This document shows positions 2,625-7,467 of a stretch of DNA of 15,109 nt, piece after piece. Every line of letters starts with the position of its first letter. Position 1 is the stretch's first letter. Position numbers and translations under genes: made by a program. The notes below the pieces were generated by a model that was not told where the DNA came from, made no database searches, and worked only from the letters and a program-made list of their open reading frames with translations. The DNA is from Lentisphaeria bacterium (lineage in GTDB: Bacteria; Verrucomicrobiota; Lentisphaeria; Victivallales; UBA1829), in contig JAFTIQ010000045.1 of the NCBI GenBank assembly GCA_017456805.1, positions 1 to 15,109 of the forward strand, given 5' to 3'.

Positions 2625-3488
2625 ATGGCACTTGTCAATTTGAAAGAAATGCTCAAAGATGCATCCTGCAGAAAATATGCTGTTGGAATGTTCGATGTCT
2701 CTGATCTGGAAATGATCCGTGCGGTTGCCGAAGAAGCAGAGGCACTCCGTTCTCCGGTGATCCTCGGTGCGCTTGGACCGGATCTGGAAGGCGAACGGCT
2801 GGAATATTGGTTTGCCCTTGCAAAGCTTGCGGCAGAACGTTCTTCTGTTCCGGTTTGTATCCATTTGGATCATGCCAATACTCTGGAACAGGTGAAGCGG
2901 GCAGCGGATATCGGATTTTCTTCCGTTATGCTGGATGCTTCCGCCTCTCCTTTTGAGGAAAATATCAGCCGGTCCAAAGAGGTCGTGGATGCTGTTCAGA
3001 AACTGGGGATCACAGTGGAAGCGGAACTTGGGCATGTTGGCAACGGCTGGGTTGGTTCCGGCGAAGGCAGCGAATCCGGGCCTGATATGCTGACAGAACC
3101 GGAAAAAGTTGCAGAGTTTGTGGAACGCACCGGAGTGGATGCGCTTGCTGTCTCTATCGGAACGGCTCACGGAGTGTACATCAAAGCTCCGGAATTGGAT
3201 ATTGAACGGCTGGATAAGATCACTGCCTGTTCCGATATCCCGCTGGTTCTTCATGGCGGTTCCGGGACTCCGGAAGATCAGATGTCACGCGCGATTGCTC
3301 ACGGTATCAGCAAAGTCAATATCTATTCTGAGATGCTGACTGCCTGGAACAGTGCAATGCTGGAAGAGTTGAAAGCGCTTCCTCACATGGCTGCCTGGCC
3401 CGCAGTTCTCCGGAAAAAACCGGATGCCGCAATGAGAGAAGTGATCCGTCAGAAGATCCGTTTCTTCGGCAGCGAAGGAAAAGCCTGA
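2625..3488 (+). CDS. class II (zinc) fructose/tagatose-bisphosphate aldolase family protein
   Basis: Predicted 287-residue metal-dependent aldolase of the FbaA/GatY/KbaY family, which splits ketose-1,6-bisphosphates into dihydroxyacetone phosphate and an aldehyde. The TIM-barrel motifs are intact: catalytic Asp82 and zinc ligand His83 in HLDHA, Glu134 in EAELGHVG, zinc His182 in GTAHG, and zinc His210 in the phosphate-binding LHGGSG. A KVNIYSE segment corresponds to the usual KVN(I/V)xTE. The length matches the short GatY/KbaY-type members. GGGAG lies 6 nt upstream of the ATG, and the gene follows the dehydrogenase after a 16-nt gap, so the two are cotranscribed. It probably takes the product of the sugar-phosphate route into lower glycolysis. 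Fructose, tagatose or another ketose bisphosphate cannot be distinguished from sequence. A housekeeping glycolytic role is less likely given the regulator-linked operon. Confidence 0.9.
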   Translation: MALVNLKEMLKDASCRKYAVGMFDVSDLEMIRAVAEEAEALRSPVILGALGPDLEGERLEYWFALAKLAAERSSVPVCIHLDHANTLEQVKRAADIGFSSVMLDASASPFEENISRSKEVVDAVQKLGITVEAELGHVGNGWVGSGEGSESGPDMLTEPEKVAEFVERTGVDALAVSIGTAHGVYIKAPELDIERLDKITACSDIPLVLHGGSGTPEDQMSRAIAHGISKVNIYSEMLTAWNSAMLEELKALPHMAAWPAVLRKKPDAAMREVIRQKIRFFGSEGKA

Positions 3489-4934: not shown

Positions 4935-5270
4935 GTGATGAAAGAAAAAAAAGTCAGTTTGAACATAAAAATTGATTAACAACATGGTAAAAAAAGAATA
5001 AGCTGCTGAGCTGCGATGCTAAAAAAGGTTGTAGTTCCGGTATAAAAATATCAGGAATGGTAAAGAACGGTAAAAAAACTGTGAAAAACGGGGAATGATT
5101 ACTGCAACAGCGTTGAGACAAAAAATATTCCGCAGGAGAAAAAGCCTTCCCGTTGGTCTCCGTTAAACACCGTTTATTCCTGTTTTAAAAGGCTGTGTGT
5201 ATTATCAATCTGATAACTCTTTCCAAATGCATTGTTTTGAAAATTTTATAGGATATCTGTGAAAAAAAAC
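4935..5270. other. gene-free gap, no clear feature
   Basis: No coding region or convincing RNA is seen in this A/T-rich stretch. It contains loosely similar purine-rich stretches of the form GGTAAAgAA / GGTAAAAAAA around 4984-5080, and a weak AGCCTT/AAGGCT pair around 5143-5195, neither strong enough to call. With the RNA unit that follows, it makes up the gap between the aldolase gene and the zinc-ribbon gene. Confidence 0.5.
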
Positions 5271-5299
5271 TTGATTTTTCTTTTATGCAGAATTATATT
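5271..5299 (+). promoter_or_regulatory. promoter of the putative structured RNA
   Basis: TTGATT (5271-5276), a 17-nt spacer, and TATATT (5294-5299): exactly the same hexamers and spacing as the operon promoter at 1269-1297. Initiation is expected around 5305-5307, at the foot of the CCGTTGCC/GGCAACGG hairpin. No open reading frame follows closely. Confidence 0.65.
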
Positions 5300-5305
5300 A
5301 TCACC

Positions 5306-5549
5306 GTTGCCAATAACGGCAACGGCTAATTGAAAACTGTTCACATTTTACGGCAAATTCGTCCGAAACCGACCAAGTATAAAACGTCTTTTGCCAACAC
5401 CATAGGTGAATTGTGTCCAGTGAGATTGTGCCTTTTTCACGCATGATCTTGCCGGATGCTCCTACTTGCATTGGTGTTGGTGGGCTCTTGGTCGGGCCTC
5501 GGACGAAGTGTAACCCTGGAGTATTCGGCTTTTTTGTCCCGAATTTTTT
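5306..5549 (+). ncRNA. putative structured small RNA, rod-shaped and 6S-like (or 5' leader)
   Basis: A promoter and an intrinsic terminator bracket about 245 non-coding nt with strong complementarity. First comes a hairpin with an 8-bp stem (5304-5311/5318-5325). A rod follows. Helix 1 is 5358-5366/5499-5507 (TTCGTCCGA/TCGGACGAA, 9 bp). Helix 2 is 5369-5377/5487-5495 (CCGACCAAG/CTTGGTCGG, 9 bp). Next is an asymmetric bubble of 15 nt (5378-5392) against 6 nt (5481-5486). Helix 3 is 5394-5402/5472-5480 (CCAACACCA/TGGTGTTGG, 9 bp), followed by TAGG/CCTA (5403-5406/5461-5464). The apical helix is 5413-5431/5441-5459, with one A-C mismatch and several G-U pairs, closed by a 9-nt loop. A closing stem, open central bubble and long apical stem over about 180 nt is the layout of 6S RNA, which binds the sigma70 RNA polymerase. 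I do not recognise a conserved 6S sequence, so that identity is tentative. A regulatory leader of the next operon is the main alternative. Confidence 0.55.
5523..5549 (+). terminator. intrinsic terminator of the structured RNA (or attenuator)
   Basis: ATTCGG (5523-5528) pairs with CCGAAT (5539-5544) and runs into a T-tract to 5549. The loop (5529-5538) is itself T-rich. It lies 88 nt before the GTG start of the zinc-ribbon gene, so it either ends a free small RNA or limits read-through into that operon. Confidence 0.6.
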
Positions 5550-5637
5550 CCGATTACACGCTATTCTCTGAATCCCCCATTGGACGTTGAATTTCTTTGC
5601 TGCAATTGCACAGTTTTTGTAACGAAGGAGGTCAATT

Positions 5638-5970
5638 GTGGCTTACATCTGCAAGTTGTGTCAATCAAAATTTCCCGAAAAACAGGAGCTGTGCCCAAAA
5701 TGCGGCGGAGCAGTACAAGAGTCATGTAATTCTTCAGGGATAAGTTTTTGTGGCTTTTTTGCTATGCTTTCTGTTTTTGTTACTTGTCCCCTTTGGTGGC
5801 GTTGGTTCTCTTTACCTTCAGAGTTGTTCGTTCCTTCCCTTTGGATATTGGTGCCGGGGTACCTATTGGGCGCAATAAGTGCATATCAATCCAAAAATAA
5901 ATCTCTTGTCGCTGTATTTCTTATTTTGACAATTGATATTATTACTGCACTATCTGAGTTAGCACAGTAA
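5638..5970 (+). CDS. small zinc-ribbon membrane protein, function unknown
   Basis: Predicted 110-residue protein with an N-terminal zinc ribbon, Cys5-x2-Cys8 and Cys19-x2-Cys22 (CPKCGG). About three hydrophobic, probably membrane-spanning segments follow, at roughly 35-51, 63-82 and 89-106. The GTG start is firm: a near-perfect AAGGAGGT (5625-5632) sits 5 nt upstream and the ribbon begins at residue 5. No clear promoter is seen between the RNA terminator at 5549 and this start. The gene may therefore depend on read-through from the promoter at 5271 or on a weak one I cannot call. It precedes the SPFH gene by 62 nt with no terminator between, so an operon is likely. Zinc ribbons of this type often mediate protein or nucleic-acid contacts. 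Here it could recruit the SPFH partner to the membrane, which is inference from context only. Confidence 0.75.
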   Translation: MAYICKLCQSKFPEKQELCPKCGGAVQESCNSSGISFCGFFAMLSVFVTCPLWWRWFSLPSELFVPSLWILVPGYLLGAISAYQSKNKSLVAVFLILTIDIITALSELAQ

Positions 5971-6032: not shown

Positions 6033-6977
6033 ATGTCATTAATTTATACAGTTCCTCAGGCTCATTGCGTCATTCTTGAACGGCTTGGAAAATTTTCAAA
6101 AATCGTTTCCCCCGGTCTTCAATTCCGTTTACCGTTTATTGAAAAGCAAAAGAATGTGATCCGGGATTGCGGATGGAGTATCAACGGTGCTCCTGTTGCC
6201 TGCAAGATTGTTGGCAATTTCACTGTTATTGAATTGTCGGATCAGCGGCTGGATACAAAGCCCCGTGATTATCACACAGCGGATAATGTACCGGTAAGAA
6301 TTGATGCTGTTATTTTCTGGCGCATTGTTGATCCGGAAAAAGCCGTATATGCTGTTGACCGTTTGATTGACTCAATGATAGATCAGGCATTAAATTCCAT
6401 GCGCAGCTGCATTGGAGCAAGTAAACTGGATGATTTGCTGACAAATAGAGAGTTTCTGAATTCACAAATAACAGAAAAAGTCGCAGCAGTTGCCCAAAGA
6501 TGGGGAATTGTAATTCAGCGAGTTGAAATTCAGGAACTTGTAACAGATGATGCAACAACCAATGCGATGCGTGCTGAAATGGCGGCCGAAAGAGAAAAAC
6601 GGGCTGCTGTTATAGCTGCTGAGGCAAAGAGTAAAGCAACAATTGCCGCCGCCGAAGCTGAACGAGAATCAATGATCATTAAGGCAGAAGCGGAAAAACG
6701 TGCTATGATCATCAAGGCAGAAGCGGAAAAAGAATCTGCGATTATGGTCGCGGAAGGTGCTTTCCGTGCAAAAGAACTTGGTGCAGAAGCTGATGCCCTT
6801 TATGTGGAAAAAATCTGTGCTGCCGGAAAAATCTCTCCGGAAAAGATTGTTTCCATTCTGATTGCCAATAAGTATGTGGATGGTTTCAATGCCATTTCCA
6901 AGAATCCGGCTGATAAAGTTTTTCTGCCCAATTCTTTTGGCAACATGAATTTATTTGTTGACAGCAATAAGGAATAA
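6033..6977 (+). CDS. SPFH/Band 7 domain protein, stomatin-like
   Basis: Predicted 314-residue member of the stomatin/prohibitin/flotillin/HflK-C superfamily, which builds oligomeric membrane-microdomain scaffolds often tied to protein quality control. The SPFH domain spans about residues 3-175, with the typical opening (VPQAHCVILERLGKF, then SPGLQF.LPF) and the VRIDAVIFWRIVDPEKAVY segment. An Ala/Glu-rich coiled-coil helix covers about 175-255, followed by a C-terminal segment. Unlike most stomatins there is no N-terminal hydrophobic anchor: the SPFH motif starts at residue 5. Membrane attachment would have to come from partners, and both neighbours are predicted membrane proteins. The coiled coil contains a tandem 11-residue repeat (MIIKAEAEKRA then MIIKAEAEKES). 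AAGGAGA lies just upstream of the ATG. The stop is 4 nt before the NfeD-like start, the classic SPFH-NfeD pairing. Confidence 0.9.
   Translation: MSLIYTVPQAHCVILERLGKFSKIVSPGLQFRLPFIEKQKNVIRDCGWSINGAPVACKIVGNFTVIELSDQRLDTKPRDYHTADNVPVRIDAVIFWRIVDPEKAVYAVDRLIDSMIDQALNSMRSCIGASKLDDLLTNREFLNSQITEKVAAVAQRWGIVIQRVEIQELVTDDATTNAMRAEMAAEREKRAAVIAAEAKSKATIAAAEAERESMIIKAEAEKRAMIIKAEAEKESAIMVAEGAFRAKELGAEADALYVEKICAAGKISPEKIVSILIANKYVDGFNAISKNPADKVFLPNSFGNMNLFVDSNKE
6672..6731 (+). repeat. 33-nt-period tandem duplication inside the SPFH gene
   Basis: The 27-nt segments at 6672-6698 and 6705-6731 differ at a single position (T/C, silent) and lie 33 nt, or 11 codons, apart. They encode the repeated MIIKAEAEK of the coiled coil. 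The near-identity at DNA level suggests a recent in-frame duplication, or an easily slipping site that changes helix length. Confidence 0.8.
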
Positions 6978-6981
6978 TCAG

Positions 6982-7467
6982 ATGTCTGCTCTGTCTGAAT
7001 TCCTGGGGATGCATTGGACTTTAGCGGTGACGATTCTCTGTATTATTATGTTGGTCATTGATCTCTTTATTTTTAACGGAGGCGGATTAACATTTGCTGC
7101 AGATGTATTGTTCTCTTTTGTTATTCTGCATTTTATCCCGACGGACAATTTGATTTGGCTGGCACTGTGGTTCCTTGTCATTTTCGGTATAGTTCTGGCA
7201 TTTCATTTGCTGTGTTATCAGAAATTTATTGTTGTTTTTCTAATGGATAAGCTTGCTCCGCAAAAGCGGAAAAATAATAATGAAATTCTGATTGGAAAGA
7301 TCGGAAAAATCTGCTGGATAGAAGAGCGGGCATATATTTATCTTGAAGACGAACACATTCCGTGCACATTCGGAAAAGAGTTCTCTCAGACAGAAATCAT
7401 AGGCAAAAAAGCCAAGGTGATTTCCTGGAAAGATTCAAGCGAAGTTTTGGTTGAAATCGCCGAATAA
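6982..7467 (+). CDS. NfeD-like membrane protein (short form)
   Basis: Predicted 161-residue protein with three hydrophobic segments (about 12-31, 36-52 and 58-78). A soluble C-terminal domain of about 65 residues (95-161) begins ILIGKIGKICWIEERAYIYL and fits the OB-fold domain of NfeD proteins. Short NfeD proteins lack the ClpP-like protease domain of the long form and are the usual partners of SPFH/stomatin proteins. I take the ATG at 6982, with AAGGA at 6969-6973 about 8 nt upstream, rather than a codon at 6955 that overlaps the end of the SPFH gene. The 4-nt gap to the SPFH stop indicates translational coupling. It probably anchors the SPFH oligomer at the membrane. It is the last gene of the operon and is followed by a terminator. 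Confidence 0.82.
   Translation: MSALSEFLGMHWTLAVTILCIIMLVIDLFIFNGGGLTFAADVLFSFVILHFIPTDNLIWLALWFLVIFGIVLAFHLLCYQKFIVVFLMDKLAPQKRKNNNEILIGKIGKICWIEERAYIYLEDEHIPCTFGKEFSQTEIIGKKAKVISWKDSSEVLVEIAE

Follow-up and report, generated by a model that had tools for sequence, protein, structure and literature searches.

A structured leader-like RNA of a new family precedes variable, co-oriented genes in Lentisphaeria and is a candidate switch for their expression

What kind of RNA is encoded by the non-coding DNA that lies upstream of an SPFH gene in a Lentisphaeria bacterium, and does it act by itself or on the genes behind it? The window analyzed here is a 15,109-nt stretch (contig JAFTIQ010000045.1) for which a sequence-only reading had proposed a promoter-to-terminator RNA with a 6S-like rod, either a divergent 6S RNA or a new RNA family. 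A folded, conserved RNA is present at this locus, and it probably switches downstream genes on or off rather than acting as a 6S RNA. The interpretation that we favor, and regard as reasonably likely, is that it forms the 5′ leader of a message, as a member of a new family of cis-acting RNA regulators that gate the genes behind them and work, in subtype B, as a terminator/antiterminator switch.

The predicted fold of positions 5310 to 5550 had a free energy of −82.8 kcal/mol, which was below that of all 200 dinucleotide shuffles (z = −4.5). The rod itself spans 5358 to 5507 on the forward strand. All three perfect 9-bp helices of the sequence-only reading (5358-5366/5499-5507, 5369-5377/5487-5495, and 5394-5402/5472-5480) were recovered in sequence and folding, the last being drawn in our rod as 5393-5402/5472-5481, and the apical part (5403-5468) contained the expected helix with wobble pairs and one mismatch. 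The central bubble, given earlier as 15 against 6 nt, measured 16 against 6 nt when counted between the perfect helices. A scan also bore out the TTGATT-N17-TATATT promoter, which is a sigma70-type element at 5271-5299 on the forward strand (TTGATT at 5271-5276, 17 nt, and TATATT at 5294-5299). Across the family, −35/−10 pairs scoring at least 8 of 12 were present upstream of 86% of copies (n = 102), versus 17% of shuffles.

The distribution of the RNA was broad within a single class. The SPFH protein encoded at 6033-6977 had one relative, 79% identical, in a Lentisphaeria genome from sheep colon (L001), where the RNA also stands upstream of the SPFH gene and where one pair of the first rod helix has changed from G-C to A-U in a compensatory way; additional RNA copies were found in that genome. 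A nucleotide search detected the RNA in 37 of 148 relatives. The covariance model R1, built on 29 copies, matched the window once, at 5350-5512 (151.3 bits), and detected the RNA in 79 of 197 genomes of the class, taken as Lentisphaeria. These carried at least 189 matches, with 1 to 7 per positive genome, counts that are lower bounds because at most 15 candidates were scored per genome. In a sample of the phylum, 57 of 387 genomes matched R1, and the only matches outside the 197 were both weak (G332 and G410; E values of 5e-8 and 5e-5). So far as searched, the family is confined to one class, the Lentisphaeria. No Rfam 15 family reached threshold in the window, and 20 further loci yielded no gathering-level match; with E values up to 10, positions 5200-5650 returned two sub-threshold matches only (SNORA69 and U4). 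The earlier alternative of a new RNA family is thus supported, in that a conserved family exists that has no Rfam 15 match. Searches of the open PMC literature, which leaves most subscription papers outside its coverage, for 6S RNA, structured RNA, riboswitches, or ncRNA in Lentisphaerae, Victivallis, and Victivallales returned no description of this RNA. Two subtypes, A (that of the window) and B, were assigned by sequence pattern or by hand, and the type-A count came to 17, 18, or 21 depending on assignment.

Homologues provided the covariation check that the sequence-only reading had suggested, and the helices were backed by compensatory change in 29 and then in 101 copies. Among the first 29, 90.7% of cells paired, compared with 83.7% for shuffled and 33 to 43% for slid alignments, and both-sided changes occurred in 22 of 59 pairs. 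In the alignment of 101 copies, which was made to the model and is hence biased toward structure, 90.3% of cells paired, 44 of 57 pairs showed both-sided change, and the covariation score was 0.503 (versus 0.192 ± 0.004 shuffled and 0.051 to 0.117 slid). All four Watson-Crick pair types were present in the outer rod helix and in the variable helix. We therefore judged the compensatory change across 101 copies to be decisive for RNA structure. A transposon-derived inverted repeat found in many copies had been named as an outcome that would undo the proposal; this was borne out in part only, in that the sequence is indeed multicopy but covaries strongly. The 5′ hairpin GUUGCC-AAUAAC-GGCAAC (5306-5323), near the expected transcript start, was variable yet paired in relatives, with 95.4% of cells paired and double changes in three of its six pairs across 18 type-A copies. 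The middle rod helix (window 5393-5402/5472-5481) was hypervariable, yet 93.9% of its cells paired across relatives, and it adjoins a nearly invariant helix, CCGACCAAG/CUUGGUCGG. RNAalifold also drew a GCA/UGC extension at the base of the rod, which was rejected, as its changes were one-sided only and it competes with the closing helix described below. The combinations CCG+TCGGT (36), CTG+TCGGC (16), and ATCGG+CCGGC (13; 100 tallied) followed lineage and are no proof alone.

Where the RNA ends proved different from the earlier proposal, which had placed an intrinsic terminator near 5549. A standard scan of 5150-5700 recognized none on the forward strand, and the inverted repeat ATTCGG/CCGAAT surrounds the T-run at 5530-5535, which lies in its loop, rather than standing before it. 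When the sequence was folded to 5607, a second hairpin (5508-5559) formed with the T-run in its loop, of which only the base, GUGUAA/UUACAC, is well supported, and the whole was closed by the helix CGGCAAA/UUUGCUG (5351-5357/5596-5602), for a predicted domain of 5351-5602. The conserved unit also extends past 5549. In four comparisons of related loci, L140 with each of L082, L104, L110, and L114, it covered −97 to +257 nt of the rod start, corresponding to 5253-5607 of the window, at 86 to 92% identity, and the region upstream of it, with gcvH, was 75 to 78% identical; the window itself aligned from −81 to +222 at 85% identity. The promoter-to-terminator description accordingly fails at its 3′ end, where no terminator was recognized at 5549, the structure goes on toward a ribosome-binding site, and copies precede co-oriented genes.

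Support for the outer elements differed by element and subtype. Over 18 type-A copies, 93.7% of closing-helix cells paired and two pairs were double-changed, in one copy each (L148 and L142), with the helix partly broken, or misaligned, in L136, L149, and the second L138 copy. The second hairpin of type A was paired in 86.1% of cells at its base and in 59.5 to 65.6% in its two upper helices; across 99 copies, its arms paired at a mean of −20.1 kcal/mol within their own locus versus −17.1 kcal/mol when swapped, and 15 copies passed this swap test at P < 0.05 and 48 at P < 0.2. TTTT stood at the end of the rod region in 93 of 99 copies examined. The A-rich bubble was also considered as a kissing partner of the T-run, but this was discarded, since own pairs gained nothing over swapped ones (−3.40 versus −3.45; 95 copies). 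In type B, a UUCAGC/GCUGGA helix replaces the type-A closing helix, and it lacked covariation support among 38 sequence-anchored copies, 43 others being impossible to anchor: 90.6% paired versus 90.7% shuffled, with zero double changes. It does no better than shuffles because its 5′ strand is invariant. The divergent copies L106, L116, L146, L156, and L157 showed locus-specific complements, which are not independent evidence because they were picked by complementarity. The 5′ strand of the closing helix was more complementary than shuffles to the sequence after the T-run (mean z of −0.95 in A and −0.74 in B), and comparison leader segments gave z values of −0.53 to 0.83, with the exception of the type-A 5′ box (−0.95).

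The genes behind the RNA showed the orientation expected of genes behind a leader. A downstream gene was called, by mechanical gene calling, for 93 of 102 copies and was co-oriented in 78 of these, at a median distance of 172.5 nt, and the nearest upstream gene was co-oriented in 58 of 98 copies. Eight of the 15 opposite calls (L070, L097, L099, L101, L122, L135, L138, and L159) were by eye also near a co-oriented start. An ORF with a ribosome site began within 350 nt downstream of 51 of 99 copies, compared with 10 of 97 in the divergent direction and 50 of 392 random points. In the window, three genes on the forward strand follow the RNA, and the first has the ribosome-binding site AAGGAGG (5625-5631), read from the sequence. 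This first gene (5638-5970) encodes 110 amino acids with an N-terminal zinc ribbon and a membrane segment (a sub-threshold Pfam match to ThrE_2 only), the second (6033-6977) a 314-aa SPFH/Band 7 protein (PF01145), and the third (6955-7467) a 170-aa membrane protein that had no Pfam match and also follows the SPFH gene in L001. The zinc-ribbon gene is absent from L001 (1748-1774), where the SPFH homologue directly follows the leader, and the two loci thus differ by a gene gain or loss exactly behind it.

Downstream proteins were diverse and differed between genomes. Among the Pfam families listed for 77 of them (25 of 107), AIDA (5), Zn_ribbon_4 (5), TM2 (4), glycosyltransferases group 1 (3), and WYL (2) occurred together with many families seen once or twice. 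PADLOC matched 37 models in the downstream proteins, nearly all of them once among the 25 matches listed. N-terminal zinc ribbons were enriched in adjacent proteins (14 of 89, versus 8 of 535 others of the same loci; P = 7e-8), as were membrane segments (43 of 89 versus 127 of 535; P = 5e-6), and lipoprotein signals were not (4 of 89 versus 15 of 535; P = 0.33). The genes behind the RNA shared no metabolic theme from which a ligand could be read.

Terminators were seen before some genes of one of the two subtypes. In a blind scan, 18 of 74 type-B genes had a strong terminator no more than 140 nt from their start, versus 8 of 188 control genes and none of the 15 type-A genes. Many type-B terminators have GCGAAAUCC..GGAUUUCGC in common. 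The type-B closing helix has a 3′ strand that, read on into the next bases, gives CUGGAUUUCGC, a sequence able to pair with the terminator's 5′ arm. This sequence (with up to two changes) occurred within 110 nt after the rod in 34 of 80 type-B copies and within 450 nt in 35 of 80, versus 9.9% of 1,062 random segments; its complement with a T-run behind was present in 17 of 80. In a set of 21 terminators selected in part by motif, pairing between the closing strand and the terminator 5′ arm beat its own shuffles (P < 0.05) in 17 (mean z of −3.5). Among the blindly found terminators, 9 of 18 passed the same test (9 of 12 plus 0 of 6), and the other nine had no special pairing. A subset of copies therefore has, on paper, two mutually exclusive pairings for one strand.

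These pairings suggest a working model on the plan of an attenuator, in which the closing helix would choose between terminator and antiterminator. Transcription would start at the RNA's own sigma70-type promoter and yield a domain of about 250 nt, in which a closing helix encloses a long rod and a hairpin whose loop is rich in U, and downstream genes would be expressed only when transcription (or translation) proceeds past it. With the domain closed, a type-B terminator would be free to form (OFF); with the domain open, the CUGGAUUUCGC strand would pair with the terminator arm and block termination (ON). The trigger that opens or closes the domain may be a small molecule, an ion, or a protein. 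Whereas the fold, the family, the promoter, and the co-oriented neighbors are observed, we infer both the switching and its OFF/ON sense, as well as the working of the window's type-A copy, whose output step would be a matter of analogy because no terminator was found before its gene.

A bolder version, which we put forward tentatively, is that of a riboswitch class private to Lentisphaeria, in which a rod-and-junction RNA senses a signal and its closing helix switches exchangeable surface, membrane, and zinc-ribbon operons. Such a class would give gut bacteria a portable unit with which to control their variable cell envelope. It is unusual for an RNA family so large and so strongly covarying, detected in up to seven copies per genome, to have no Rfam match. 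If it is a switch, it defines a regulon in gut bacteria that are mostly uncultured, made up of envelope, adhesin, zinc-ribbon, and polysaccharide genes, and the signal that it senses turns into a direct laboratory question. Since the RNA stays constant while the genes behind it vary, the handover of control to newly acquired genes is itself testable.

That variability also fits a mobile or recombining unit, a gene-capture platform or a repeat, whose fold serves the unit and whose downstream genes are cargo. L082, L104, L110, L114, and L140 share upstream neighbors and differ in downstream genes, the window and L001 differ upstream and share the SPFH genes downstream, and a contig end is no more than 650 nt away from at least 16 of 100 copies. 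A tRNA gene on the same strand was found 0.46 to 0.87 kb upstream at 10 of 101 loci scanned, and such genes could mark island insertion sites. We nevertheless consider this explanation unlikely, as the promoter, the covariation, and the terminator logic fit an expressed regulator, no viral copy was confirmed and no phage matched, and the copies formed no arrays, with the exception of two on one L138 contig. These two copies (593-756 and 3207-3369) have the same orientation and are 2.45 kb apart, the second being diverged. The contig ends look as if assemblies often break next to the RNA. The loci with upstream tRNA genes were L065, L082, L093, L101, L104, L108, L110, L114, L118, and L140, with tRNA-His in five, and L065, L085, L105, L108, L109, L111, and L147 had in common a longer repeat (CTGGATTTCGCAGCAGAAAGTTGTGGAATC...) after the RNA. 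Phage origin was pursued separately and rejected: blastn of the RNA against phage records, with plasmid and E. coli collections outside the search, gave no match, and an exact pattern occurred in four viral contigs, in none of which the RNA model confirmed the stretch. Relatives of the SPFH protein in viral contigs were likewise sought, and none was confirmed.

A free-standing, trans-acting small RNA of a non-6S kind, which ends at the T-run and stands before other genes by chance, would also have its own promoter and occur in multiple copies, and the T-run found at the end of the rod region in nearly all copies would mark its 3′ terminus. Co-orientation with downstream genes, the conserved structure beyond the T-run, and a window without a recognizable terminator argue against such an RNA, and we think it quite improbable.

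The 6S layout consists of a closing stem, a central bubble, and a terminal loop, as set out in part of PMC3847290; here, the rod has a 16/6-nt bubble, and the predicted domain adds a hairpin and a closing helix outside it. A divergent 6S RNA, free-standing, 180 to 245 nt long, and binding sigma70 RNA polymerase via the bubble, is suggested by the rod, the bubble, the promoter, and the lack of any other 6S RNA among the 148 relatives, but is very improbable given the very short 3′ side of the bubble, the domain that continues past the T-run, the many genomes with several copies, the strong co-oriented gene bias, and the lack of a 6S match at any threshold tried. The earlier label "6S-like" found no backing in Rfam, as 5200-5650 had no 6S match even at an E value of 10 and RF00013 detected none of the 148 relatives, in a search with stricter filters whose control was detected in 4 of 14 known genomes. 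6S RNAs (RF00013 and 6S-Flavo, RF01685) thus resemble the window RNA in their rod, its asymmetric bubble, and the sigma70 promoter, whereas the latter matches no such model, is multicopy, and continues into the leader of co-oriented genes.

Other known systems were compared in the same way. Leader RNAs of processive antitermination include put, EAR, and LoaP-dependent hairpins; these are alike in that an RNA lies beside a promoter before surface or polysaccharide genes, with terminators downstream. LoaP/RfaH-type antitermination differs in that the RNA-bearing genomes have no regular extra NusG paralogue, as seen from the NusG-domain matches in the 79 carriers (one in 56, at least two in 10, and none in 13). 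For Y RNA, the TROVE domain of the Ro60 partner was detected once among 197 genomes, in G183, which does not belong to the 79 carriers. The lack of 6S matches in the 148 relatives, of TROVE in the 79 carriers, and of a regular extra NusG domain speaks against kinship with 6S RNA, Y RNA, or LoaP-type systems. Among riboswitches, the SAM-I and purine types have a terminator/antiterminator platform, and the rod described here is far larger and more variable than theirs. The Acido-Lenti-1 RNA (RF01687), reported from Acidobacteria and Lentisphaerae in a section of PMC2864571, is also a structured RNA of this bacterial group; it has an Rfam number, whereas neither the window nor 20 related loci had a gathering-level match in Rfam 15. 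PMC11109978 treats as a class those riboswitches and attenuators that use a terminator/antiterminator platform. The window RNA differs from them in having no Rfam match, in the terminator not found in subtype A, and in the genes it precedes, which serve the envelope and accessory functions instead of a single pathway. It resembles them in a conserved, aptamer-like leader domain with its own promoter and, in subtype B, in a closing-helix 3′ strand that also pairs with a terminator arm.
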